Assembly: GCA_021846985.1 (NCBI GenBank)
Contig: JAJZVX010000013.1
Location: 1-64,000, forward strand
DNA length: 64,000 nucleotides
Source of the DNA: Acidobacteriota bacterium
GTDB lineage: Bacteria > Acidobacteriota > Terriglobia > Terriglobales > Acidobacteriaceae
Direction: 5' to 3'
A model generated the notes under the pieces. The model had not been told where the DNA came from and did not search any database. It worked only from the letters and a program-made list of their open reading frames with translations. Positions 1-12,518 of the stretch are shown piece by piece. Made by a program: the position numbers and the translations under genes. Numbering within the stretch: the first letter of the stretch is position 1; each line of letters opens with the position of its first letter.

Positions 1-121
1 TTTTACTTGCCCTTTTCTTGACTCATGTGGGCCAGGTAGCTACTGTAAGAAAACAACCAGCGCCGCTTCGCTCCGACCCTGGCCCACTTCACCGGAATCG
101 GTGGCCCACTTCACCGGAATA
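1..121. mobile_element. Terminus of an IS21-family-like insertion sequence (rest lies left of the window)
   Basis: Two direct copies of TGGCCCACTTCACCGGAAT occur at 80-98 and 102-120, spaced 22 bp. Short reiterated repeats of this GGCCCA...CCGGAA type are typical of IS21-family ends. The polymerase frame on the minus strand reads into them as IPVKWATDSGEVG, which is IS-encoded sequence and not polymerase. The junction with host DNA should lie at about 121-125. No istA or istB gene is in the window, so the family call rests on the repeats alone. Confidence 0.6.
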
Positions 122-1776
122 CGCACCGGTCCCGCCGAATCGTCTCGATTCATCTCGGCATATATTCCGTAGCTCGCCGAATTCGCCAGCACTTTCAAAG
201 CCTTCGAGAGCCGTTCCTTTTCCACGTCAGAAATGTCATTTCTGCGCGAGAGCGCTTTTCTCTGTTCAATCACAACGCGAAAGAAATCATCTTCACGCGG
301 ATCAATTTCGATCTTTCGGCGCAATCTTGTTGGCCGCAGATTCGGCAGTATCCCGTGAGGCTCCAAGATGAACGAATCGACGATCTTCGGGATGCGCTCG
401 GTCAGAATCACAGAGGCCACAACATCCGGCAGAGAGAACCAAATCGCATCATCAGAGCTTTCCGCGTAAAGATGATTGATTCCGACTTGCCAATCATTTG
501 TCGCACGGTTGTATTGGCAGCGGGCAGGGAGAATATCGCCCTGGGGCTGAATTCGGACAAATGCGGTCAACTGCCCCCAAATGCTTTGCTGAAATAATTC
601 GTCCGCCGTTATCTTTCCAAGCAACGATTGAATTTCATCGTTTGTGCCGGTGCGAATTCTGATTTCTTTGGCGATGACGTATTTCCAAAGGCCAAGGAGA
701 CTATTCACCGTGGGGTACATGGATAGGAAATCCGTGTATACGACCGGCACGGGGAATTTCCTGATGTGGGCGCTCGTACGCCCGCCGAAAAATGCAGATT
801 GCGTATAACCGATATACGGCTGCAAATTCTTCTGCCGGTCCAACACTGGAGAAATGCCCATCGCACGCAAATATGCTTTGCCGATGGAAGCAGGTGAAAA
901 TGCGCTTGTTGCCCGAAGCGGTATGGGATGGCCGTCGAATTCCTCCAGCAATTTCTCTGCAAGCTCGGCAGTCGCCTCAACGTCCCTTCGGCAGTAGTTA
1001 ATGTATTCATCACAAATCTTGCCGTGTCCCGATGCTTCCATCTTTCCGTGCTCAACGCCGAAGGCATCGCACGCGGATTTGAGGGAATGGCTCCTGTCGA
1101 GAGCAAATGCGAGCGTGCGAAGATCGAGGAAATTTCCTCGGAAGGTTTTTACCTTTCCTGTTTTCTCGTCCTTGTCCAAATCGCCTTCGTCCGGGCTTCT
1201 TCTAGCGGTGAATCCCATCAAGGCGCGTTTGCTGTCGATATGCCTGACCCCGATTCGTGGCCGGAACGCATTTCGCTTACGCCGTCCTTTCTTGTCAACG
1301 TATTGCCAAAGGCCAATCGAGAATCCGCCCGCAAATTCACCTCTGGACGGCGCAACATCAAATCCTAACCGCGACAGATCAAAGGGGAGATTGAAGCCCA
1401 CGAGCAGACATTTGGTTTTGTAGGCTGTACGGAATAGTTCATAAAGAAATTCGTCTAGCGTGAGCAGGTCAAGCGTGCGATGGCCATGCCGGGCAACATT
1501 TGCAGAATGAGAGTCCGCGTAGTCCCTTAATGAGCCAAGTTCGTTCTCCGGCAAATCGCCTGCATAAAATAGAGCCTCGCGGACACAATGGCCATCAACG
1601 ATGTACCGGAAGCAACCGAACTTGAGACTTTGTGTTGCATCCGTCCGCGTCTCTGTGTCAAAAACCATCATCGCGCCTGGGCGATGCCACGGCTCGCGCG
1701 TTCTGGGCCTGCGTGTCACACCCTCAATTTCCGGGTATACACGAATTGCAAGGTCAACGGGGCCGGGTTCACACAC
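40..1776 (-). pseudogene. B-family DNA polymerase (3'-5' exonuclease + polymerase), 3' end replaced by IS sequence
   Basis: The reading frame gives 578 residues. Exonuclease motifs are visible: Exo I FDTET (39-43), Exo II GFNLPFD (127-133) and Exo III YCRRD (261-265). The polymerase follows with motif A YTDFLSMYP (347-355) and motif B K-x3-NSASYG (528-537). Motif C (usually DTDS) and the thumb are missing: after about residue 551 the frame runs into the IS21-like repeats and stops at 40. It would have copied DNA with proofreading; casposons of several families carry such a PolB, presumably for replication or gap repair after integration. It is third in a minus-strand unit after the HTH and HNH genes, 10 bp from the latter. 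An active polymerase is unlikely as it stands. Family identity is firm; the mechanism of truncation is inferred. Confidence 0.85.
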
Positions 1777-1786
1777 GAGAGAGCCT

Positions 1787-2281
1787 CTATTGCTGCCATG
1801 CTGTGGGCCTGATGTTCAGCACCTGCCAGTAATGTTCGCCGAGCCTGTGCACCAATTCATTGTGTAGGGCTTCTAGAAGTTCTGCTACCCGAAGAAGAAG
1901 CCTCTCGATTAGATGGACGACGGTATCGCAGAAGCCCCGAATGCACGCGGCTCCAGCAAGCAAGGGAGAGCCGGTTGGATTTTCGCGCGTTTCCTTTCGC
2001 CAGTCATACATCGCATCGGTCAGGATTGCATGGTCGTTTGCCGGAATCGAGACTGTCAGGTCATGGTTTCTTTTTCCTGCAACGTGATGACGCTCCATGA
2101 CAGACAGTCCTCTCTGCTTGTGCCTGCATTCCCTACAAATCACCGGCTTTGAACCGGCAATTAAGGCATGTGGCTCCGATGCTCCGCACGCGCATTTGGC
2201 GTCCGGGCCTACCCGGCGCTGCGCACGGCTGCGGCGCATCTCTTTTCCTACCGGGTCACGTGAAGGAATTTCGTTTCTCAT
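1787..2281 (-). CDS. HNH-like zinc-binding protein, putative nuclease
   Basis: This is a 164-residue protein. A zinc knuckle is made by C30-x-C32 and C49-x2-C52, followed by ERHHVAGKRNHD (63-74) and PANDH (80-84), a His-His...Asn...Asn-Asp-His layout like HNH (beta-beta-alpha metal) nucleases. The C-terminal half is helical without a clear domain. Its ATG overlaps the stop of the upstream HTH gene by 3 nt, so the two are translationally coupled, and polB follows 10 bp downstream. HNH nucleases are regular members of casposon gene sets; here it could process ends or act as a homing or defence nuclease. The nuclease role is inferred from the residue pattern. Confidence 0.6.
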   Translation of the reverse strand: MRNEIPSRDPVGKEMRRSRAQRRVGPDAKCACGASEPHALIAGSKPVICRECRHKQRGLSVMERHHVAGKRNHDLTVSIPANDHAILTDAMYDWRKETRENPTGSPLLAGAACIRGFCDTVVHLIERLLLRVAELLEALHNELVHRLGEHYWQVLNIRPTAWQQ

Positions 2282-2856
2282 TAGACTACACTCCTGTATA
2301 GGGATTCAAACGAAAGCACTCCAGCAGAACCCAGCTTTTGCAGCTCCGCCAAATCAGTAACGAGCTTGATGCGCTCGCCTTTTTCATCCAGTAGCTTCAT
2401 GCGTCGAAATTTCTTCAGGCGGGATGCATCGCCTGTTTGCAGATATTTCTGGACTGCGGCGCTGTATTCAGCAATTCTGCTGGCGGTCTCAGAGCCGCGC
2501 ACCGCAACCTCTGTCAAACCATCTGGGGAAGGGATGACAAGCACGCGGAGCAGCTTGTCGCTGGGCCGTGCGACGTAGCGCCCATTCTTTGTCTTCCGTA
2601 GTGCTGAACCCGCGCGGTTCCTGACTATGCGGGGATCAAGGCCGAATTCGCGTGATGCCTGAGTGAGCGATGCGCCCTCAGACCGCATTTTGGAAATCAC
2701 GTGGGTCACGCGGCTCCAAGTTTCCTGCTGGACCTCCGGGAGAGCGTAGAACTGCTTCGATGTCCGGGGCCGCGTAATCTTCCTTTTCTTCACTGGGCTG
2801 GTTGTGGTTGCCCTGTTGCCAATCGTCTTCCGCTTCAGTTTCTTCTTCGAGGCCAT
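2281..2856 (-). CDS. Helix-turn-helix DNA-binding protein of the island
   Basis: This is a 191-residue, very basic protein. Residues 1-35 are a Lys/Arg-rich tail. Residues 55-80 form a helix-turn-helix (ASLTQASREFGLDPRIVRNR), followed by a conserved-looking core (SALRKTKNGRYVARPSD) and a small C-terminal domain ending in LSFESLY. It is the first gene of the minus-strand unit HTH-HNH-polB and faces the zinc-ribbon/cas1 unit across a 205 bp AT-rich gap, a good position for an autoregulator or an end-binding accessory factor. No enzymatic motif is seen. An AGAGAGA purine tract precedes the ATG as ribosome binding site. Confidence 0.6.
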   Translation of the reverse strand: MASKKKLKRKTIGNRATTTSPVKKRKITRPRTSKQFYALPEVQQETWSRVTHVISKMRSEGASLTQASREFGLDPRIVRNRAGSALRKTKNGRYVARPSDKLLRVLVIPSPDGLTEVAVRGSETASRIAEYSAAVQKYLQTGDASRLKKFRRMKLLDEKGERIKLVTDLAELQKLGSAGVLSFESLYRSVV

Positions 2857-3061
2857 TTCTCTCTCTTTTCATTTTGAAGTATGAGTTCCGCATATTTTTT
2901 GCGGATCGTGATTTCGATTTAATCATGGATGGTTTGAATAAGGTCATTTGTATAAATTAGATAACCGATTGATACTCGAAGAGTTTGTCGTATTATATTT
3001 CGCTCAATAGTAACTTTTTACCGTATAATTAAGACTGGAATTTCAGGAGGCCCACGCAAAA
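2857..3061. promoter_or_regulatory. Divergent promoter region between the polB unit and the cas1 unit
   Basis: This 205 bp gap is much richer in A+T than its surroundings. It contains a perfect 6 bp inverted repeat TCCGCA (2887-2892) / TGCGGA (2900-2905), a candidate operator for the neighbouring HTH protein. A consensus -10 box TATAAT lies at 3024-3029 for the plus-strand unit; no good -35 was found. AGGAGG at 3045-3050 is the ribosome binding site of the gene at 3062. The minus-strand promoter could not be placed. Confidence 0.5.
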
Positions 3062-3613
3062 ATGCGAAAACCCAAAAATGACGGAAAATCAGGAAAGATT
3101 TCTCTTGACAGGCTTTCGGGGAAACGTGGGCGAGGTCGTCCGCGGTGGGTTCCTGCTGCCCTTGTCAGAAGTTGCGCGGACAATTACCGAAGACTGCTAG
3201 AGAGAGGATGGAATGATTTGGAAGACCCGCTCTTGGCAGCGCAATCGGAACAGGAAGTCGCTGTTGCCCTTCGGCGCGTCCCTCCTGGCTACCCCCATGA
3301 ACTCTCTCTGCTGGCACCTTTGATCCTCAAGGTCATAAAAGAGCCGAAGTTCCCAAAGCGGAAAAAAGCGCAAATCAATTTCCTGGCGGATTCAATTGGC
3401 GCTGGCGGAGCAGTGACGCCACGAAGATCGCGTGACATCTGCGCAGAGGAAAGAGCGCGCGACGCACAGCGACACCACATTCTCCGGTACGAATTCTGGA
3501 TTGAGTGTTCCTGTGGCTATAAAGGCCGCTCCGAAAACCACAGTTGTAGGGATTGCGGAGCAATTCTCTATCTACCTACTGCATCCGAATCAGACGCATC
3601 ACGAGACCAATGA
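3062..3613 (+). CDS. Zinc-ribbon protein upstream of cas1, function unknown
   Basis: This is a 183-residue protein. The N-terminus is basic (RLSGKRGRGRPRW, an AT-hook-like GRGRPR at about 22-27), the middle is helical, and the C-terminus carries a zinc ribbon CSCG...CRDCG (about 154-172). No catalytic motif was recognised. AGGAGG lies 11 nt before the ATG and a TATAAT -10 box 32 nt before it, so it opens the transcript that continues into cas1 63 bp downstream. A DNA-binding accessory role in integration, or regulation, is plausible but not shown by the sequence. Confidence 0.6.
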   Translation: MRKPKNDGKSGKISLDRLSGKRGRGRPRWVPAALVRSCADNYRRLLERGWNDLEDPLLAAQSEQEVAVALRRVPPGYPHELSLLAPLILKVIKEPKFPKRKKAQINFLADSIGAGGAVTPRRSRDICAEERARDAQRHHILRYEFWIECSCGYKGRSENHSCRDCGAILYLPTASESDASRDQ

Positions 3614-3676
3614 GCGGGCTTGCCACCTGTTGCGAGCAGGCGGCAAACCCTAACCACCGAAGGAGAGTGCACTCCA

Positions 3677-5383
3677 ATGGCAGCTACCCAAACCGTAGCG
3701 TACCCGTCTCAATCGCGTAAACCCCCGATAGATCATGCTCTCTCAGCACATGGCCTATCCGCCCATCGGAATTTATGTCTGAAGCCTCAGCATGGCGTGA
3801 TAACTCTCGCTGGGTACGGCATCCGCGTGAATGTAGATCGCGGGCATCTAACCCTTGAAGATGGCATTGCCACAGACCGCAGACAGTGCCGACTCCCGCG
3901 CGTCAATCACGGCCTGAAGCGCCTTGTTGTGATTGGCTCAGACGGAATGATCTCCCTGGCAGCTTTGCGCTGGCTGGCAGATCAGGATGCGTCATTCGTC
4001 ATGCTCGAACGTGACGGCTCGGTGCTTGCTACAACCGGACCGGTACGTTCTTCGGATGTGAAGCTCAGGCGGGCACAGGCTTTGTCGCTCGAAAATGGGC
4101 CCGCTTTGCGGATCAGCCGCGATCTGATTGACCGCAAACTCGCTGGGCAGGAGAAGGTCGCAATCGAATCGCTTGGCGACGAATCCGCCGCATCAGCAAT
4201 ACAACGGTTCCGATCCGATCTACCCGCCGCGCAGTCTATCGATGCAATTAGGCTTATCGAATCACAGGCTGCGCGCGCCTACTGGCAAGCATGGCGGGCT
4301 GTGCCTGTGATGTTTCCAAAGAGTGATCTGCGACGTGTCCCCGAGCATTGGCTCAATTTCGGTTTGCGGGTATCTCCCCTTACTGGTTCGCCCCGTCTTG
4401 CCGTCAATCCCGCAAACGCGATTCTGAATTACCTGTACGCCATGCTTGAAACGGAGACGCGCCTCGCCGCTACGACATTAGGGCTTGATCCTGGAATTGG
4501 CGTTTTGCACGTCGATCTGCATTATCGGGACAGCTTGGCATGTGACCTGATGGAGCCGATCCGGCCCCGTGTTGATGCATACGTCTTGGATTGGCTGAAG
4601 TATAGTCCACTCCCGCGCAATCACTTCTTCGAGCAGCGAGACGGCAACTGTCGCTTGATGGCGGGCTTCGCCTCCATCCTGTCGCAGACCGCGCCGAAAT
4701 GGGCGCGACTGGTTGCGCCGGTTGCGGAGTGGTTTGCACGGGCCATCATGGGGGAAACGAAAGCTAGACGGAATCACTTTCCTGCGAGACTGACGCAACA
4801 AAACAAACGAGAGGCGAGGGGCGGGAACTCGCTGTCAACCGCAGCAGTCGGCTTGAAGCCTGAAAAGGCTTGCCAAGGTTGCGGAGTGGTGATTGCGGGC
4901 TCTGCTACGCATTGCAGATCATGCTCTCGTGAGAACCATACCCAAGAATTAATCGAGGCGGCCAAGGTAGGACGCATTGCAGCGCAGGCTCCGGAGGCTC
5001 AACAGAAAAGATCGGCGACCCAACAAATCAACGCGCGAGCACGGTACGATTGGAAATCGTCAGACCAACCGGATTGGCTAACAGCCGTGTTCTACTCAGA
5101 GAAAGTAGTGCCTTCCCTTGCCTCGGTCTCAGCCACATCGATAGCGAAGCGGTTGAACGTTTCCTACAGCTACGCCGATGATATTCGCAAGGGCCGTGTG
5201 CCGCATCCGAGGCATTGGAAAGTGCTGACTGAGTTGACGGGATTGAGTAAGGATGTACCAGACAGCGAGCCAAAATTGAATTTCAACACCACTTCAAAGA
5301 ACATGAGCGCATCCTCGCGGCGAGTATTTAGAATAGGAACCGCCCATGCCGAAACTCGATTGGCTCACCCGAAGCGAAGATGA
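3677..5383 (+). CDS. cas1: Solo Cas1 integrase (casposase-like) with C-terminal zinc finger and HTH
   Basis: This is a 568-residue protein from the ATG at 3677 (AGGAG 11 nt upstream; a TTG at 3620 is in frame but lacks a good site). Residues 1 to about 365 form a Cas1 fold: the Glu motif IESQAARAYW (E195), the His motif GIGVLHVD (H278) and the Asp motif SLACDLMEPIRP (D290, E293) are the metal-binding triad of the Cas1 integrase. About 200 extra residues follow: a CxxC-x10-CxxC zinc finger (C399, C402, C413, C416) and an HTH (about 481-521, VSATSIAKRLNVSYSYADDI). Ordinary CRISPR Cas1 proteins are about 300-340 residues; a C-terminal HTH extension is a known trait of casposases. No cas2, effector or CRISPR array is near. 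It would integrate the element's ends into target DNA. Confidence 0.85.
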   Translation: MAATQTVAYPSQSRKPPIDHALSAHGLSAHRNLCLKPQHGVITLAGYGIRVNVDRGHLTLEDGIATDRRQCRLPRVNHGLKRLVVIGSDGMISLAALRWLADQDASFVMLERDGSVLATTGPVRSSDVKLRRAQALSLENGPALRISRDLIDRKLAGQEKVAIESLGDESAASAIQRFRSDLPAAQSIDAIRLIESQAARAYWQAWRAVPVMFPKSDLRRVPEHWLNFGLRVSPLTGSPRLAVNPANAILNYLYAMLETETRLAATTLGLDPGIGVLHVDLHYRDSLACDLMEPIRPRVDAYVLDWLKYSPLPRNHFFEQRDGNCRLMAGFASILSQTAPKWARLVAPVAEWFARAIMGETKARRNHFPARLTQQNKREARGGNSLSTAAVGLKPEKACQGCGVVIAGSATHCRSCSRENHTQELIEAAKVGRIAAQAPEAQQKRSATQQINARARYDWKSSDQPDWLTAVFYSEKVVPSLASVSATSIAKRLNVSYSYADDIRKGRVPHPRHWKVLTELTGLSKDVPDSEPKLNFNTTSKNMSASSRRVFRIGTAHAETRLAHPKRR

Positions 5384-6863
5384 GAAGGTCTCCGCGCACG
5401 TTCCCTACCGGCTCCTGGAGGCGGTGCCGGAGCATTCCTATGGCGATCCGAACACCGAAAACATGCTCATCCAAGGGGACAACCTGGATGCGCTGAAGGC
5501 TCTGCTCCCGTTCTACGCGGGCCGAGTGAAGTGCATCTTCATTGACCCGCCCTACAACACCCGGAGTGCCTTTGAGCACTACGATGACAACCTGGAGCAT
5601 ACGCAATGGCTTGCAATGATGTATCCGCGTCTTGAGCTGTTGCGGGAGTTGCTCACTCAGAACGGAAGCATCTGGATCACCATTGATGACAATGAGGCGC
5701 ACTATCTGAAGGTGGTCATGGATGAACTCTTTGGAAGAAAGAACTTCATTGCGAATGTCATCTGGCGCAAGAACTACTCCCCGAAATCAAGCGCCCGGCA
5801 CTTCTCCGTAGACCACGACCACATACTTGTGTACGCGGCGGATTCTGAGGCATGGATTCCAAATCCTATGCCGCGCACAGAGAAGCAAGACAAGGCTTAC
5901 AAAAACCCGGACAATGATGCTCGGGGGCCTTGGAAGCCTAGCGATTTGTCGGCAAGGAATTACTACAGCTTGGGCCGGTATCCGATCACCACACCCAAGG
6001 GCCGGGTCATATCCGGTCCTCCGGGCGGGAACTATTGGCGCATGTCCGAAGAGAACTTCAAAAGCATGGATGCGGACGGGCGCATCTGGTGGGGAAAAAG
6101 CAAAGATTCCATACCTCAGATTAAGCGGTTTCTTTCTGAGGTTAAGCAGGGCATGACACCGCAAACCTATTGGTCGTATGAGGACGTGGGGCACACTCAG
6201 GAAGCCAAGCAAGAGATTCTGGCGCTTTTTGGAAAAGACGTTTTCCTCACGCCCAAACCCGAAAGGCTCATGCAGCGCATTATGCACATTGCCACGGGGC
6301 CTGATGAGGTCGTCTTAGATTCTTTTCTCGGCTCCGGCACAACCGCTGCTGTGGCACACAAGATGGGCCGCCGCTACATCGGGATTGAGAACGGGGAACA
6401 CGCAATCACGCATTGTGCTCCACGCCTCAAGAAAGTGGTGGACGGTGAGCCGGGCGGCATCTCCAAAGCTGTGGACTGGAAGGGAGGCGGCGGATTCCAC
6501 TTCTACCAGCTTGGCAGTGCCGTGTTCGATGAAGAGGGACAAATCAATCCGGCTGTGCGTTTCGCGCACCTTGCCGCGCACGTATGGTTTGCCGAGACGC
6601 GCACGCCCTTGCCGCATCCACGGAGGCGCTCTCCGCTCTTGGGCGTGCATGATGGCGTGGGCTATTACCTGCTTTTCAACGGCATCCTTGGGGACAAGCG
6701 GCCTGATGGTGGGAACGTGCTCACGCGCCGGTTGCTTGCGGAGCTGCCCGCGCACGATGGTCCCAAGGTCATCTACGGCGAAAGCAGCCGGTTGAGTAAG
6801 GAAAGCCTGCTCCAGCTTGGCATCACGTTCAAGCAAACACCCTACGATGTGAAGGCGCGTTGA
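5346..6863 (+). CDS. mod: Type III restriction-modification methyltransferase subunit (Mod), N6-adenine
   Basis: This is a 505-residue protein. The catalytic motif IV DPPY (67-70) precedes the SAM-binding motif I DSFLGSGT (325-332), the beta-class order typical of type III Mod subunits. The region between (about 140-300) includes the target recognition part. It methylates adenine at the system's recognition site and guides the Res partner. The ATG lies inside the last 38 nt of cas1, so the two genes share a transcript and are probably translationally coupled. It is shorter than EcoP1/EcoP15 Mod (about 645 residues) but all motifs are intact. res follows 48 bp downstream. Confidence 0.9.
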   Translation: MPKLDWLTRSEDEKVSAHVPYRLLEAVPEHSYGDPNTENMLIQGDNLDALKALLPFYAGRVKCIFIDPPYNTRSAFEHYDDNLEHTQWLAMMYPRLELLRELLTQNGSIWITIDDNEAHYLKVVMDELFGRKNFIANVIWRKNYSPKSSARHFSVDHDHILVYAADSEAWIPNPMPRTEKQDKAYKNPDNDARGPWKPSDLSARNYYSLGRYPITTPKGRVISGPPGGNYWRMSEENFKSMDADGRIWWGKSKDSIPQIKRFLSEVKQGMTPQTYWSYEDVGHTQEAKQEILALFGKDVFLTPKPERLMQRIMHIATGPDEVVLDSFLGSGTTAAVAHKMGRRYIGIENGEHAITHCAPRLKKVVDGEPGGISKAVDWKGGGGFHFYQLGSAVFDEEGQINPAVRFAHLAAHVWFAETRTPLPHPRRRSPLLGVHDGVGYYLLFNGILGDKRPDGGNVLTRRLLAELPAHDGPKVIYGESSRLSKESLLQLGITFKQTPYDVKAR

Positions 6864-6911
6864 GTGCTCGCCGCACGGGCGGCGGATTGATTCGGGTTGC
6901 AAGGGGATGGC

Positions 6912-9530
6912 ATGAGGCTGAAGAACTTTCAAGAAGACACGCTCAAGGCCCTGAAGGATTATCTGGAGGCTGTGCGCCTATGCGGGGACCCGGAGGCGGC
7001 ATTCCTCAAGGTGGTGAAGCCCCCCGATGGCCGGTTGCCGCTTTACCGGAAAGTGCCGGACCTGGAGAGTATTCCTTATGTTTGCTTGCGGTTGCCCACG
7101 GGCGGCGGCAAAACGATTGTGGGAGCCTATTCGATTCGCGTTGCCGGGCAAAGCTATATCGAAAAGGATTACCCGGTTGTGCTGTGGCTGGTGCCATCCA
7201 ACTCCATTCGCACACAGACGGCACAGGCGCTCAAGAACAACGCACATCCCTACCGTATTGCCCTGGATGAAGCCTTCGATGGCCGGGTGCGGGTGTTTGA
7301 AATATCGGAGATTGAGAACATTCGCCCGCAAGACTTGCGGGACGCCGTGTGCGTGGTGGTGGGCACCATCCAATCGTTGCGCGTCACCAGCACGGAAGGC
7401 CGGGATGTGTACGCGCACAAAGAGGCGCTGGAGGACCACTTCACCAAGCTGAATGTGAACGTGCCCGGCTTGGAGAGAATCGAGAACGGCGCTGGCGCGG
7501 GCAAGGTGAAGTATTCCTTTGCCAACCTGATGATGGTTCACCAGCCGCTCATCATCATGGATGAGGCGCACAATGCGCGTACTCCGTTGACCTTTGACAC
7601 GCTGAAGCGGCTATCCCCATCAGCCATCATCGAACTGACGGCAACGCCCGCCACGGACCCACGCACGGGCAGCAATGTGCTGTATCGCGTCTCCGCCTTA
7701 GAGCTGAAGGCTGAGGACATGATTAAGCTGCCCATTGCGTTGACGGTGCATGAGGCCGGATGGCAAGAGGCCATCGGGGATGCCTGCCGCACGCGCAAAC
7801 GGCTTGCGGAGGCGGCAGCGGGTGAGCCGGAGTATATTCGCCCCATTCTGCTGATTCAGGCGGAGAACAAAGACAAGCCCGCGAATGTGGAGGCCGTCAA
7901 GCAATTCCTTCTGGACAGCGAACACCTCACAGAAGAGCAAATTGCCATTGCCACGGGAGACCAAAGGGACCTGGACAAAATCAATCTCTTTGACCCGGCG
8001 TGCAAGGTTGAAGCAGTCATCACGGTACAGGCGCTCAAAGAGGGTTGGGATTGTTCCTTCGCCTATGTGTTTTGCTCCACGGCCAACATCGGGAGCAGCC
8101 GGGATGTGGAGCAGCTATTGGGCCGCGTGTTGCGGATGCCGTATGCGAAACGGCGCAAGGCGGCGGAGCTAAACAAAGCCTATGCGCACGTCTCCAGCCC
8201 GAATTTTCTGGAGGCCGCGAAGCAGCTCGAAACCTGCATGATTGAGAAGATGGGCTTTGAAGAGGCTGAGGCAGAGCAATACATCGAAGTGCAGCAGCCT
8301 TCCATCCCGAATCTGCCGCTATTCCTTCAGGAGAATCCGCTTCGCTTGACGGTTGCGGAGCCGCTGAAGCTGGAGGACCTGTCAGAGCGGGAGCGCCAAT
8401 CCATCATCCCGAAGTCAGAAGCTCCGGGCCAAATCGAAATTGAAGTGCATGGGCAGATTACGCCGGAGATTCAGAAGGCGGTTCTTGCCGCCGTACCGGA
8501 GCCGGAACGCGCAGCAATCGAGCGGAAAATCACAGAGTACATAGCAGGGCAGGAATCGCGCCTAGCGCCCGCCTTGCGCGGGGAAAAGCTGGTGGTCCCG
8601 CGCCTGTGCGTGCGCTACCAAGGCGAGCTGTTGCCGTTCGATAAAGAGCTGGTGCTTGATGCCGCCTCATGGGACCTGAGCCAATGCGCCATTGACCTGA
8701 GTGACTTCCGATTCAACGACACATCGAAGACGTTTGAATTCGATGTGCAGGGCAGCAAGGTTGTGTATGCGTTCAAAGGTGAGCAGCAACTTGACCTGAA
8801 TTTGCTGCCGGGAGAGTGGACAGAGAATGACCTGATTCGATGGCTGGACAAGGAATTGCGGCAACAGGATATTCGGCAAGCGGCAAGCCTCGCATGGCTC
8901 CGCGTGTGCGTGCGGCAGCTCTTGGAGCGCAAGGGCTTTGACTTGCCGTTGCTGGTGCGGGCTAAATTCATCCTTGCACGCAAGCTGGCAGAGCGCCGGG
9001 ATGAGTGCCGGGCATCCGCGTACAACGCCGGGTATCAGGACTTGCTCTTTGGGCCGAACGCCGCACCAGAAACCAGCTTTGATTACGCCTTCAAATACGA
9101 CCCAAACGTGTACCCGGCCAAGTGGTACTACAGCGGGCGGAACCGCTTCCCAAAGCATTTCTACCCGATGGTCGGTGAGTTGGAGAGCACTGGCGAAGAG
9201 TTCAACTGTGCTGAGGCCCTGGATGCTCAATCGGGCATCAGGACGTGGGTGCGGAATTTGGCGCTCCAGCCGGAATCGTCGTTTTGGCTCCAGACCTCAA
9301 CGGATCGCTTCTACCCGGATTTTGTGGCGGAAACGCTGGATGGCCGTCTTCTGGTGGTGGAGTACAAGGGCAAGGACTACGCCACCAATGATGATTCCAA
9401 GGAAAAGAAGATGCTCGGGGAAGTGTGGGCAAAGGGTAGCAATGGCCGGGCGTTGTTCCTGATGGCTCTCAAGAAGGATGAGCGGGGCAGGAACGTGTAT
9501 GAGCAAATCAGGGGAACGATTGAGGGTTGA
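6912..9530 (+). CDS. res: Type III restriction enzyme Res subunit (helicase-nuclease)
   Basis: This is an 872-residue protein, with start at the ATG preceded by AAGGGG (an upstream TTG at 6897 is less likely). It has an SF2 helicase with Walker A LPTGGGKT (61-68), DEAH (217-220), a LTATP motif III and a motif VI stretch QLLGRVLRMPYA. The C-terminus has a PD-(D/E)xK nuclease: YPDF (801-804, D803) and VVEYKGKD (815-822, E817 and K819). With Mod it would translocate or slide on DNA and cut unmodified invaders. All catalytic motifs are present, so the system looks functional. It ends just before the membrane protein gene. Confidence 0.9.
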   Translation: MRLKNFQEDTLKALKDYLEAVRLCGDPEAAFLKVVKPPDGRLPLYRKVPDLESIPYVCLRLPTGGGKTIVGAYSIRVAGQSYIEKDYPVVLWLVPSNSIRTQTAQALKNNAHPYRIALDEAFDGRVRVFEISEIENIRPQDLRDAVCVVVGTIQSLRVTSTEGRDVYAHKEALEDHFTKLNVNVPGLERIENGAGAGKVKYSFANLMMVHQPLIIMDEAHNARTPLTFDTLKRLSPSAIIELTATPATDPRTGSNVLYRVSALELKAEDMIKLPIALTVHEAGWQEAIGDACRTRKRLAEAAAGEPEYIRPILLIQAENKDKPANVEAVKQFLLDSEHLTEEQIAIATGDQRDLDKINLFDPACKVEAVITVQALKEGWDCSFAYVFCSTANIGSSRDVEQLLGRVLRMPYAKRRKAAELNKAYAHVSSPNFLEAAKQLETCMIEKMGFEEAEAEQYIEVQQPSIPNLPLFLQENPLRLTVAEPLKLEDLSERERQSIIPKSEAPGQIEIEVHGQITPEIQKAVLAAVPEPERAAIERKITEYIAGQESRLAPALRGEKLVVPRLCVRYQGELLPFDKELVLDAASWDLSQCAIDLSDFRFNDTSKTFEFDVQGSKVVYAFKGEQQLDLNLLPGEWTENDLIRWLDKELRQQDIRQAASLAWLRVCVRQLLERKGFDLPLLVRAKFILARKLAERRDECRASAYNAGYQDLLFGPNAAPETSFDYAFKYDPNVYPAKWYYSGRNRFPKHFYPMVGELESTGEEFNCAEALDAQSGIRTWVRNLALQPESSFWLQTSTDRFYPDFVAETLDGRLLVVEYKGKDYATNDDSKEKKMLGEVWAKGSNGRALFLMALKKDERGRNVYEQIRGTIEG

Positions 9531-9595
9531 TAGCAGACGCTGCATCGCGCAGCGTGAAACAGCAGACACTATCCAAGAGGCATAAAATTCCGAGT

Positions 9596-10189
9596 ATGCT
9601 CAGTGAACAATTGGATCAAGCTGACAAGGCACACGAACAGTATGTGGAGGAACGCAAGCTATTGATCGACGCTGCTCGTGAAAGCGCACGCACCTTTGAC
9701 AAGGCGGTATTGACTTTTGGCGCTGCGGTTTTTGGGGGCTCAATAGCTTTCATCAAGGACGTAGCGCCAAAACCTGAACTGTTCACCTTGAAATGGCTCG
9801 CAATCTCGTGGGGCTTGTTCTCGGTTGGCCTGCTGTCGATAATTCTGTCATTTTTGTTTGGGCATAAAGCGTGCATGTTCGAGATTGACATAGGCGCTGA
9901 TGCACTGAAAAATCCAGAGGTCAGCAGGCCAATAAACCGATGGTCAACCGCGACGGATTGGGCAAATGCTCTGTGTGTGGCATTTCTGTTTGTGGGGCTG
10001 TTATCATGGTCCGTATTTGCCTTTGAAAACCTTGCGGAATCTGGAGGAAAAATGTCGAACAACCCGCCATCACCTTCCCAACCAGAAGTGGTAAAGAAGA
10101 GCTACACGCCGCCACGTACTCCACCACCCCCACCGCCGAGCCAGTCAGTTCCTGCACAACCTAGTCAGACACCGCCGCCGCAAAAATGA
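9596..10189 (+). CDS. Three-helix membrane protein with proline-rich C-terminal tail, unknown function
   Basis: This is a 197-residue protein from the ATG at 9596 (an upstream TTG at 9527 would add 23 residues). The N-terminus is charged and helical (1-35), then hydrophobic segments at about 37-54, 66-89 and 122-143. A cytoplasmic or exported tail rich in proline follows, with SYTPPRTPPPPPP at 169-181. The same 13-residue tail motif recurs in the small protein encoded immediately downstream. No family was recognised. It follows res by 65 bp in the same orientation, so it could be a cargo gene of the island or part of a defence module. Confidence 0.6.
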   Translation: MLSEQLDQADKAHEQYVEERKLLIDAARESARTFDKAVLTFGAAVFGGSIAFIKDVAPKPELFTLKWLAISWGLFSVGLLSIILSFLFGHKACMFEIDIGADALKNPEVSRPINRWSTATDWANALCVAFLFVGLLSWSVFAFENLAESGGKMSNNPPSPSQPEVVKKSYTPPRTPPPPPPSQSVPAQPSQTPPPQK

Positions 10190-10326: not shown

Positions 10327-10676
10327 TTCTGTCAGGTTGGGAAATCTGACGGGCGACGGAAGGCAGAATCAAATCGAGCAAGCGCGTACTAGACCATCGG
10401 CAATAATGCATTGAAGCAGGCTACATCCCAAATTTGAATTCTTCCATACATTCTGAACGCGGCGAAGTCCCACAATTCAAATATGGATTGACTGCTGTTT
10501 TGAGACCACATAAAAATCAGATGAGCTGTAGATGTTTACCAAGATGACAACTTCCCGAGTTGGCATTTGGGGGCTACAGGGGGGGTGCACTTTTCCCGGC
10601 CCCTGTCTCCTATCCCCCCGCGCGTTTGACCCCGCTTCTGCGTCTAACTAGACTTAAACACACACAGGAATTGCTT
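10327..10676. other. Non-coding right flank of the island
   Basis: These 350 bp carry no convincing gene. Composition changes from AT-rich to GC-rich at about 10,550, which I take as the right boundary of the acquired segment. A 9 bp inverted pair ATTTGAATT (near 10,433) / AATTCAAAT (near 10,473) is present. No tRNA gene, obvious terminal inverted repeat or target duplication was recognised; the left end is outside the window, so matching ends cannot be tested here. AGGA at 10,666-10,669 is the ribosome binding site of the next gene. Confidence 0.45.
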
Positions 10677-12518
10677 ATGACGGTTCGTCCTCTTCGCTCC
10701 TTCGTTCTTCTCGCCTCGGCGTTTTTTCTCCTTTTTGCCGGCCTTCTCCCGGCGCCGCTTCCGGCTCAGTCGCAGAGCGACAGTTCCGCCAGCGGCCAAA
10801 GCAGTTCCTCGTCCACCATGGAGATGTATCAGCAGGAAAAGACGCCGACCCTCGTCGATCCCGCCGGACCTACCATCTCCCTCGTCAGTCTCGAACCCAT
10901 GTTTGTCATGGCAGCCGCCCTCAATGCCTGTGGGTACGACGAGGGGCTCGACGAGAGCGCGCCCCTCCGCAAGCGCGTCCGCGCCGAGATTAATCAGGCC
11001 CTGGCCAAAAGCGAAGATGCCCGCAACGCCCGCGACAAGGTCTGCCTCTTCATCGCCCAGCACCGCATGACCGGCACGGAAAGGGACATCTCCCAGTACG
11101 TCTCGCTCGCCCTCTACACCACCCCGCCGCCCCAGACCGAGCTTACTGCCCAGCTCTCCGAAATGCCTCCCGACTCCACGGCGGTCGCTGAGATTGTTCC
11201 CCTCCTCAAGGACTTTGCCGATTCCGTCGATCTCCATGGCATCTGGCTTGCCATGCGCCTTACGTACGACCAGGAGGCCGATCAGCTCCACGACGCTCTC
11301 TCACGCATGATCGTCAACACCAACCTCTACCTCAAAATGCCGGCCTCCACTTATAGCGGCCGCCGCTTCATCGTCGTCTTTGAGCCCATGCTCTCACCCC
11401 ACCTCGTCAACGCCCGCATCTACGGCGCCGACTTCGTCGTGGTCGTTTCTCCCGTCAACGGACAGATTCGCATGAACGATGTCCGACACATCTATCTGCA
11501 CTACATCATCGAGCCGCTCCTCTACTCCCGTTCCAACGCCATCGACCGCGCCGACCCCATCCTCAAGGAGATTCGCGAGGCGCCCCTGCCCTTCATGTAC
11601 CGTTCCAACATCCTGGCCCTCACCGTCGAATGTCTCATCAAGGCCATCGAGGCCCGCATCATGGATACCGGCATTCCCGAATACAAGATTCCCGCCGGCA
11701 TCGATCGCTCCGACCTGCCCCGCTATGAACACGAGCGCCAGCTCTACCAAGACAAGGTCAACGCTTTCCGCTGGTCCGTCGTCCATCACGACATGGTCCA
11801 GGGATACGTTCTCACCGAATACTTCTATCGAGAGATGCTGATCTTCGAGAAACAACCCGCCAGTCTCGGCGACACCATCGGCGAAATGGTCTACAGCATG
11901 GACGTGGACGAGGAAGTCCATCGCGCCCGCCGGATCCAGTTCGACACGGTCTCCGATGTCGATGTCCTTGAGCGTCCCGTGCCCCGCAAGCTGGAAGGCC
12001 TCGATCTGGCTGAAGCCCGTCTCTCCAACGGCGACGCCGCCGGCGCCCGAAGCATTGCTCAGCGCATTCTCGACTCCCACCCCGACACTCTAAAGGGAAC
12101 TGCCGACGCCGCCCGCGCTGACTTTATTCTTGCCCGCGCCGCCATCCTCTCCGGCCAGCCTGAAGCCGCCATCAGCGACTTCCAGCAAACGCTCGCTACC
12201 AGCAAGGAGCCCCGCCTCCTCGCCTGGTCCCACATCTACCTTGCCCGCATGCTCGACCTCGATTGCAAGCGCGACGAGGCAGTGGCCGAATACAAGCTTG
12301 CCCTGGCCGCCCGCGACGGTCAGCAGGACACCCGGCTCGCCGCCGAGCGCGGCCTCAAGAAGGCCTATGCGGTCCGCGGCCACGTCTGCGACGACGATGC
12401 CGATGACGGCCCCCCTCCCGCATCGGACCAGCCCGAGACCGCCGCGCCCGGCACGAACCGGCCAACTGGCTCTGCGGCGCCCGCACCGCTTCCCCATGGA
12501 GCCGGAACGACACCATAA
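10677..12518 (+). CDS. Exported protein with C-terminal TPR-like repeats, unknown function
   Basis: This is a 613-residue protein from the ATG at 10677 (an AGGA box precedes it; the longer frame to 10560 has none). The signal peptide is MTVRPLRSFVLLASAFFLLF followed by an Ala/Pro cleavage region. The middle (about 60-440) has no recognised domain. Residues about 450-570 look like tetratricopeptide helices (ARADFILARAAILSGQPEAA, then a second similar unit). The tail is rich in Pro/Ala. The codon use and GC content match the chromosome, so it is the first core gene right of the island. Confidence 0.65.
   Translation: MTVRPLRSFVLLASAFFLLFAGLLPAPLPAQSQSDSSASGQSSSSSTMEMYQQEKTPTLVDPAGPTISLVSLEPMFVMAAALNACGYDEGLDESAPLRKRVRAEINQALAKSEDARNARDKVCLFIAQHRMTGTERDISQYVSLALYTTPPPQTELTAQLSEMPPDSTAVAEIVPLLKDFADSVDLHGIWLAMRLTYDQEADQLHDALSRMIVNTNLYLKMPASTYSGRRFIVVFEPMLSPHLVNARIYGADFVVVVSPVNGQIRMNDVRHIYLHYIIEPLLYSRSNAIDRADPILKEIREAPLPFMYRSNILALTVECLIKAIEARIMDTGIPEYKIPAGIDRSDLPRYEHERQLYQDKVNAFRWSVVHHDMVQGYVLTEYFYREMLIFEKQPASLGDTIGEMVYSMDVDEEVHRARRIQFDTVSDVDVLERPVPRKLEGLDLAEARLSNGDAAGARSIAQRILDSHPDTLKGTADAARADFILARAAILSGQPEAAISDFQQTLATSKEPRLLAWSHIYLARMLDLDCKRDEAVAEYKLALAARDGQQDTRLAAERGLKKAYAVRGHVCDDDADDGPPPASDQPETAAPGTNRPTGSAAPAPLPHGAGTTP

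Follow-up and report, generated by a model that had tools for sequence, protein, structure and literature searches.

Nested insertions in an acidobacterial genome: an IS21-family element in the polB gene of a casposon, and casposon target sites at promoter -35 boxes

Results

The locus and its features

The window analysed in this study comprises bases 1-64000 of contig C24 (94,878 bp) from Acidobacteriota bacterium GCA_021846985.1, which we call a soil acidobacterium and whose genome is assembled in 48 contigs. Because the window starts at base 1 of C24, position 1 is also a contig end. C8, C21 and C48 denote other contigs of the same genome, L numbers are fetched loci and G numbers are other genomes. 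The following features were assigned; counts out of 42 loci include duplicates.

1-125: right end of an IS21-family insertion sequence (IS), tip TGCGTATTCCGG... on the minus strand; identical to the start of C48, 83% identical to the related IS in L044
80-120: two 19-bp terminal sub-repeats of the IS end (80-98 and 102-120), from the sequence
126-130: 5-bp IS target duplication CCGGT; its partner is formed by the 5 bases that precede the IS on C21
126-1776, minus strand: 5' part of the casposon polB, some 548 codons that include exonuclease motifs and motifs A and B; 3' part at C21:25794-27183
1787-2281, minus strand: small casposon gene, HNH-like by eye; match in 16/42 loci
2281-2856, minus strand: small casposon gene, HTH-like by eye; match in 28/42 loci, no family over the cut-off
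3062-3613, plus strand: small gene with a Cys-rich C-terminus, zinc-ribbon-like by eye; match in 6/42 loci
3620-5383, plus strand: cas1 (casposase), Cas1 domain (PF01867, 140 bits) and a Cys-rich tail, HTH-like by eye
5346-6863, plus strand: type III DNA methyltransferase, cargo
6897-9530, plus strand: type III restriction enzyme, cargo
9527-10189, plus strand: uncharacterised 220-aa protein, cargo; no family match, match in 1/42 loci
10433-10616: right terminal inverted repeat (TIR) of the casposon, pairing with C21:24113-24298
10617-10630: 14-bp target site duplication (TSD) CCCGCGCGTTTGAC; its second copy abuts the outer side of the left TIR on C21
10626-10654, plus strand: sigma70-type promoter by sequence, with -35 TTGACC (10626-10631), a 17-bp spacer and -10 TAGACT (10649-10654)
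10677-12518, plus strand: host TPR-protein gene, whose promoter is the target

For the TPR gene the ATG at 10677 is a likelier start than the listed ORF start at 10560, which lies inside the TIR. The gene at 1787-2281, with what we take to be an HNH motif, found no match in Pfam, NCBIfam or PHROGs. Among solved structures the cas1 product matches 4n06 (E 2.2e-18) and 6opm (E 5.3e-18), which we take to be a CRISPR Cas1 and the Methanosarcina mazei casposase, respectively; the PDB listing says only Cas1. Since the two score alike, the Cas1 sequence does not separate CRISPR Cas1 from casposase. The frames of cas1 and of the type III restriction-modification (R-M) genes are open, so the view of the initial annotation that these genes stay intact holds.

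An IS21-family end at the start of the window

The two 19-bp copies are identical and lie 22 nt apart. When the 48 contigs were searched with up to two mismatches, the 19-mer occurred four times and in two places only, the starts of C24 and C48, and the control, the same 19-mer read backwards, occurred nowhere. The tip of the IS (...GGAATACGCA) is at 125, five bases past the second copy. Window positions 3-127 are an exact repeat of C48 1-125, in which the CC after the tip, common to both contig starts, belongs to the two flanks. Contigs that share their first bases and then diverge are a sign of a repeat that the assembler did not cross. The other IS end, TGCGTATTCCGGTCGATG..., is found at the end of C21, at the end of C24 and at the start of C8; the three copies of this left end do not differ over 119 bp, nor do the two copies of the right end over 123 bp. 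At the polB junctions the left flank reads ...CACCGGT and the right flank CCGGTCCC..., so CCGGT is duplicated.

The IS body with its genes is absent from the assembly and seems to have been collapsed or dropped. An IstB search of the genome gave four weak places, all of them on other contigs and none near the junctions. Because the genes of the window copy are unassembled, the family was assigned through the kinship of its ends to a related IS of about 3.5 kb in a genome of the same genus (G179:C149, fetched as L044), with 96% identity over 126 bp at the left end and 83% over 124 bp at the right. This relative encodes an IS21 IstA transposase (NF033546, 284 bits, cut-off 160) and an IstB helper (NF038214, 246 bits, cut-off 200), which bears out the earlier reading of an IS21-type end. 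The window IS has TGCGTATTCCGG tips at both ends, target duplications of CCGGT and CCAAC, and several terminal sub-repeats. Its sub-repeats, TG...CA tips and short duplication are those of the IS21 family, whose IstA/IstB pair is present in the related IS, and nothing unusual for the family was seen. Our scan for IS ends covered 200 genomes of the order. In G077 three ends, 92% identical, lie at contig starts and so yielded no IS body; in G169 the ORFs near a related IS end were considered as istA/istB and rejected, being not alike by eye.

Further copies exist in the window's genome. A second one joins the end of C24 to the start of C48 with the duplication CCAAC (L016 about 10755-10879 / L012 1-123), and splits a short frame near a tRNA-Gly gene; the start of this frame is integrase-like by eye. 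The third left end, at the start of C8 (L015 1-120), has its right partner missing from the assembly.

polB is split by the insertion

The polB frame on the minus strand runs from 1776 to 40, and alignments of relatives' PolB that reach its window end stop at residues 547-555. The C-terminus of the L026 PolB (472 aa) has a single match in the genome, C21:25815-27185 at the end of C21, with 76% identity. When the flanks are joined with one CCGGT, a polB frame of 1011 aa without internal stop results, of which residues 1-1008 align to the L026 PolB with 77% identity and 2 gaps. The insertion point follows residue 548 or so, with motif B (528) before it and motif C (607) after it; the motif positions (A, B, C, KxY) come from string searches in the joined frame. 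The window part of polB scores 24 bits against DNA_pol_B_2, just below the cut-off of 25.8, and a search of the PolB profile against solved structures gave nothing at E 0.1.

The initial annotation had proposed that the two 19-bp repeats cut polB after motif B and removed motif C. The repeats are real, and the frame is interrupted after motif B with the IS tip at 125; the predicted short target duplication is present, as CCGGT at both polB junctions, and the rest of polB lies beyond the other IS end, at the end of C21. What does not hold is the removal: motif C is displaced to C21 and the joined frame carries no other lesion. polB is split by the IS, not stripped of motif C. The insertion very likely ends PolB function.

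A continuous polB is present in many relatives. Of 40 stitched loci, measured from stop to stop, 24 have a polB frame of 960 codons or more and 12 have one that is shorter, broken or runs into a contig end; the other 4 gave no match. Two entries, SbA5 and JAIQ, are apparent duplicates of others. In G002, a genome of the same genus, the PolB frame (L100 961-2908) stops after 649 aa though homology seems to continue, which is either a second damaged polB in the lineage or a sequencing error.

A casposon in the promoter of a TPR gene

The TIRs align over 186 bp with 98.9% identity (C21:24113-24298 against window 10433-10616), and the 14-bp repeat CCCGCGCGTTTGAC stands directly outside both. This pair of TIRs with its TSD links C21 to the window independently of the IS junction. 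In relatives, too, the TPR gene of the window has as its neighbour the anti-sigma gene that is found here on C21, with 17 of 20 fetched upstream regions holding both, which is independent support that C21 and C24 belong together. The gap between the two genes is 25-196 bp in six relatives (L098, L087, L096, L094, L082, L099) and holds inserts of 0.9-4.3 kb in four (L090, L083, L084, L081). An assembly artefact, in which unrelated contigs share an IS end and polB was cut by deletion or is a pseudogene, could draw on the window starting at a contig start and on the missing IS body, but is very improbable, given that the 5-bp duplications, the in-frame polB halves, the 186-bp TIR pair, the 14-bp TSD and the synteny all join C21 to C24.

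The element that hosts the IS is a true casposon, a kind of transposon moved by a Cas1 enzyme: its TIRs and TSD enclose cas1 and polB, a B-family polymerase is present, and relatives have empty sites. Within the element the neighbours of cas1 are polB, the small genes and the R-M genes. We are highly confident of nested insertions, of a casposon into the TPR promoter and then of an IS21-family element into its polB. Both IS junctions and both duplications, the open joined frame, the TIR pair with its TSD, and promoters that are empty in some relatives and occupied in others are seen directly; the order of the two events is our reading of them.

G002 carries a related element at the same TPR promoter. 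When window 5346-9530 is compared with L100 4055-8290, the restriction enzymes of the two elements share 93% identity, against 72-82% for Cas1, the methyltransferase and the N-terminal part of PolB; judged by these sequences, the cargo of the two elements appears to be mosaic. A 332-aa casposon cargo protein (L014 6783-7781) has no Pfam, PADLOC or PHROGs match and no relative in the 42 loci.

Target sites at the -35 end of promoters

TIRs and TSDs were detected without regard to any motif, and each TSD was afterwards oriented with its motif pointing to the right. Since the longest repeat was taken as the TSD, its far end is less certain than the TTGAC end. The detection gave nothing in 18 of the 40 stitched loci (contig ends, decay, or a core outside the stretch). 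G187, with only a low-scoring imperfect duplication, was dropped, and the 23 elements considered are that of the window, 21 detected ones, some of them with the boundaries given by a separate detection, and G038b, one of the 18 loci, whose TSD was found in that separate detection. Of these, 21 were scored, after G016, which shares its site with G030, and G328a, which has a further element on its promoter side, were left out.

The TSD ends with the motif in 20 of the 21 scored acidobacterial casposons, as TTGAC in 18, TTGTC in 1 and TTGAG in 1, against a background of 1.3% for any of the three at either end of random 17-mers from the same loci. The motif forms the very last bases of the TSD in 19 of the 20, and no element has it at both ends. 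The exception, G067, has a 14-bp duplication without TTGAC and was kept in the 21.

Downstream of the motif a -10-like hexamer follows. TANNNT, a pattern chosen after the sites were seen, starts 17-18 bp after the six-base -35 box at 18 of the 20 sites, whereas 139 other windows of these flanks gave 0.09 on average and never more than 1; G362 and G122 are without it. The 20 sites are not independent, because some target genes are shared by more than one element; with one site for each of the 14 kinds of flank the pattern is found in 12. Over the 40 loci, target sites included, 51 of 1475 TTGAC (3.5%) have such a TANNNT. Scored against the full TATAAT consensus, the sites have 3.85 matches at spacer 17/18, compared to a mean of 1.78 and a maximum of 2.65 in 114 other windows.

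Genes read away from these sites. In 15 of the 23 elements a sense frame of 80 aa or longer starts 17-114 bp beyond the TSD; in G122 the listed frame start overlaps the -10, so that the true start must lie further on, and G124 has too little sequence. Seven elements lack a sense frame, of which a tRNA-Gln gene explains four (G038b, G075, G016, G030) and three remain (G038a, G067, G328a). The tRNA-Gln gene follows the TSD in G038b, G075 and G016, and G030 has the same flank. By NCBIfam, searched with at most 330 residues, the target genes include those of valine-tRNA ligase (G066), threonine-tRNA ligase (G080), ribosomal protein L21 (G156b), a radical SAM protein (G014b) and a Ser/Thr kinase (G148), of which only L21 is above the cut-off. 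Promoters of valS, thrS, rplU and tRNA-Gln are thus among the targets. On these sequence criteria, the TSD appears to sit at the -35 end of gene promoters in nearly all of the acidobacterial casposons scored (20/21).

Empty, reoccupied and stacked promoters

TTTGACC with a -10-like hexamer is found in 12 of 20 TPR loci, two of them (L095 and L100) with a casposon and one (L081) with an older insertion; the pattern is absent from the other 8 of the 20 upstream regions. The insertion in L081 (about 2852-7100, G233) is 4.2 kb long, lies at the same promoter, has TIR-like ends by eye and contains repeated pieces of the end of the anti-sigma gene. For the tRNA-Gln promoter eight of the matching places were fetched, and TTGAC, the spacer and TACACT are kept in all eight; by eye, five of them have no TIR in the 70 bp upstream and three have one. 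As the -35 is also present at promoters without a casposon, its sequence is a property of the target. That TTGAC is instead the casposon's own end sequence is highly unlikely: it does adjoin the TIR in 20 of 21 scored copies, but it also stands in TPR promoters that carry no casposon and in tRNA-Gln promoters where no TIR is visible, and host DNA supplies the -10 hexamer at promoter spacing.

In G166 a casposon at the TPR promoter has polB, not cas1, on the TPR side, from which it follows that this promoter was struck more than once or that the element was inverted in place. Immediately beyond the TSD, TIR-like sequence is seen on the side away from the promoter in 9 of the 23 elements and on the promoter side in 1 of the 23, and new casposons seem to arrive beside the promoter. 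Tandem casposons are described for Methanococcoides burtonii (PMC4046053) and M. mazei (PMC9939771).

Of 300 genomes of the family, 37 have a relative of the casposon Cas1 (E <= 1e-20), as do 25 of the 399 in a class sample; the two samples overlap and both include the window's genome.

Discussion

The element shares with the casposons of Krupovic et al. 2014 (PMC4046053) Cas1 and PolB, TIRs, a TSD, and methyltransferase/restriction cargo. In that source TIRs of 25-602 nt and a median TSD of 15 are given, and IS inside casposons are already reported (ISNCY in MetArv-C1, IS1595 in NitAL212-C1). The acidobacterial elements differ in a TSD that ends at a promoter -35 and in a PolB profile without a solved-structure match. 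With the Aciduliprofundum boonei casposase they share a 14-bp target segment; that enzyme needs DNA outside the TSD, a leader, together with a border dinucleotide, and its target is next to a tRNA-Pro gene with the leader motif TCAAATC, whereas here we find bacterial promoters with the -35 at the border and the -10 at 17-18 bp (PMC6614799). MetMaz-C1 of M. mazei likewise has a TIR beginning GGGATA and a 14-bp TSD, but its host is archaeal, its TSD sequence and targets differ, with one tLEU2 site, and the parts of PMC10359463 available to us report no break in its polB. The casposon targets named in the portions of the literature available are tRNA genes, gene 3' ends or, for families 3 and 4, 'intergenic'.

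The strings 'Acidobacteri' and 'promoter' have 0 occurrences in the main text of PMC4046053, and no Acidobacteria are named in the main text of PMC9966878 or PMC7544198. Among the listed matches in the open-licence literature, from which subscription papers are mostly missing, no title and abstract reports casposons in promoters. 'Casposon' and 'Acidobacteriota' occur together nowhere in this literature, and 'casposon' and 'Acidobacteria' only through a 'casposon' in a reference list. An earlier report of promoter-targeting casposons in other literature is possible.

The probable loss of its polymerase raises the question of whether the element is still mobile. The initial annotation suggested that it may be trapped at this locus, and for a casposon that is dead because PolB is essential for movement one can point to the 24 of 40 related entries whose polB stays open for 960 codons or more, and to the single match that the PF03175 profile (E <= 0.001) and the polB C-terminus each have in the genome. 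However, TIRs, TSD and cas1 are present, and since the copies of the IS have identical ends, the insertion may be too recent for a verdict. Furthermore, a mini-casposon without polB, in which TSDs and TIRs enclose an origin and resistance cassettes, moved in vivo in M. mazei, a host whose native casposon has polB (PMC10359463). It follows that polB need not be in cis, while the native casposon leaves PolB in trans possible. We regard entrapment as possible but rather doubtful. The element probably no longer copies its own DNA with PolB, and it may still be cut out or inserted by Cas1.

The events can be pictured as follows. A casposon of about 13.6 kb (without the IS) would have inserted in the promoter of the TPR gene, between the TPR and anti-sigma genes, with Cas1 as the presumed integrase. 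Cas1 probably cuts just after the TTGAC of the -35 and 14 bp upstream on the other strand, so that both TSD copies would keep the -35 and the host promoter stay complete. Later an IS21-family element, of about 3.5 kb as judged from its relative, would have entered polB after roughly codon 548, in the stretch that separates polymerase motifs B and C, with duplication of CCGGT. The outside DNA needed by the casposase would here be the promoter, which the enzyme may read itself, with the Cys-rich and HTH-like tail seen by eye, or to which it may be brought by RNA polymerase.

A competing account is that promoters are struck only because they are accessible, being protein-free or melted, and that the casposase reads TTGAC or less. 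The spacer of 17 or 18 bp, whose sequence varies between targets as in ordinary promoters, is consistent with this, as are the targets valS, thrS, rplU and tRNA-Gln, which we take to be strongly transcribed. Nevertheless, the TSD ends at the same base after TTGAC, TTGTC or TTGAG in 19 of 20 sites, which argues for a fixed register between protein and DNA, and we would rate accessibility alone as a tentative explanation, somewhat short of an even chance. To a wider proposal we do give about even odds: acidobacterial casposons may be promoter-specific transposons, whose casposase, alone or with RNA polymerase, would use a sigma70 promoter as its leader and cut after TTGAC and about 14 bp upstream, leaving the promoter intact and placing each new element beside it, which would push older ones away.

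The IS insertion itself is ordinary mobile-element biology, and through it a bacterial casposon lineage with good boundaries and a clear rule for its targets came to light. The fixed register on the -35 and -10 makes target recognition by a bacterial casposase directly testable, and suggests how the element avoids harming housekeeping genes. It also offers a concrete model that links casposon insertion with the leader-side insertion of CRISPR spacers. If casposons are indeed promoter-specific, their polarity would be the same as that of spacer acquisition at the CRISPR leader, and this would provide a route by which a promoter-side insertion site became the leader-repeat border of CRISPR.
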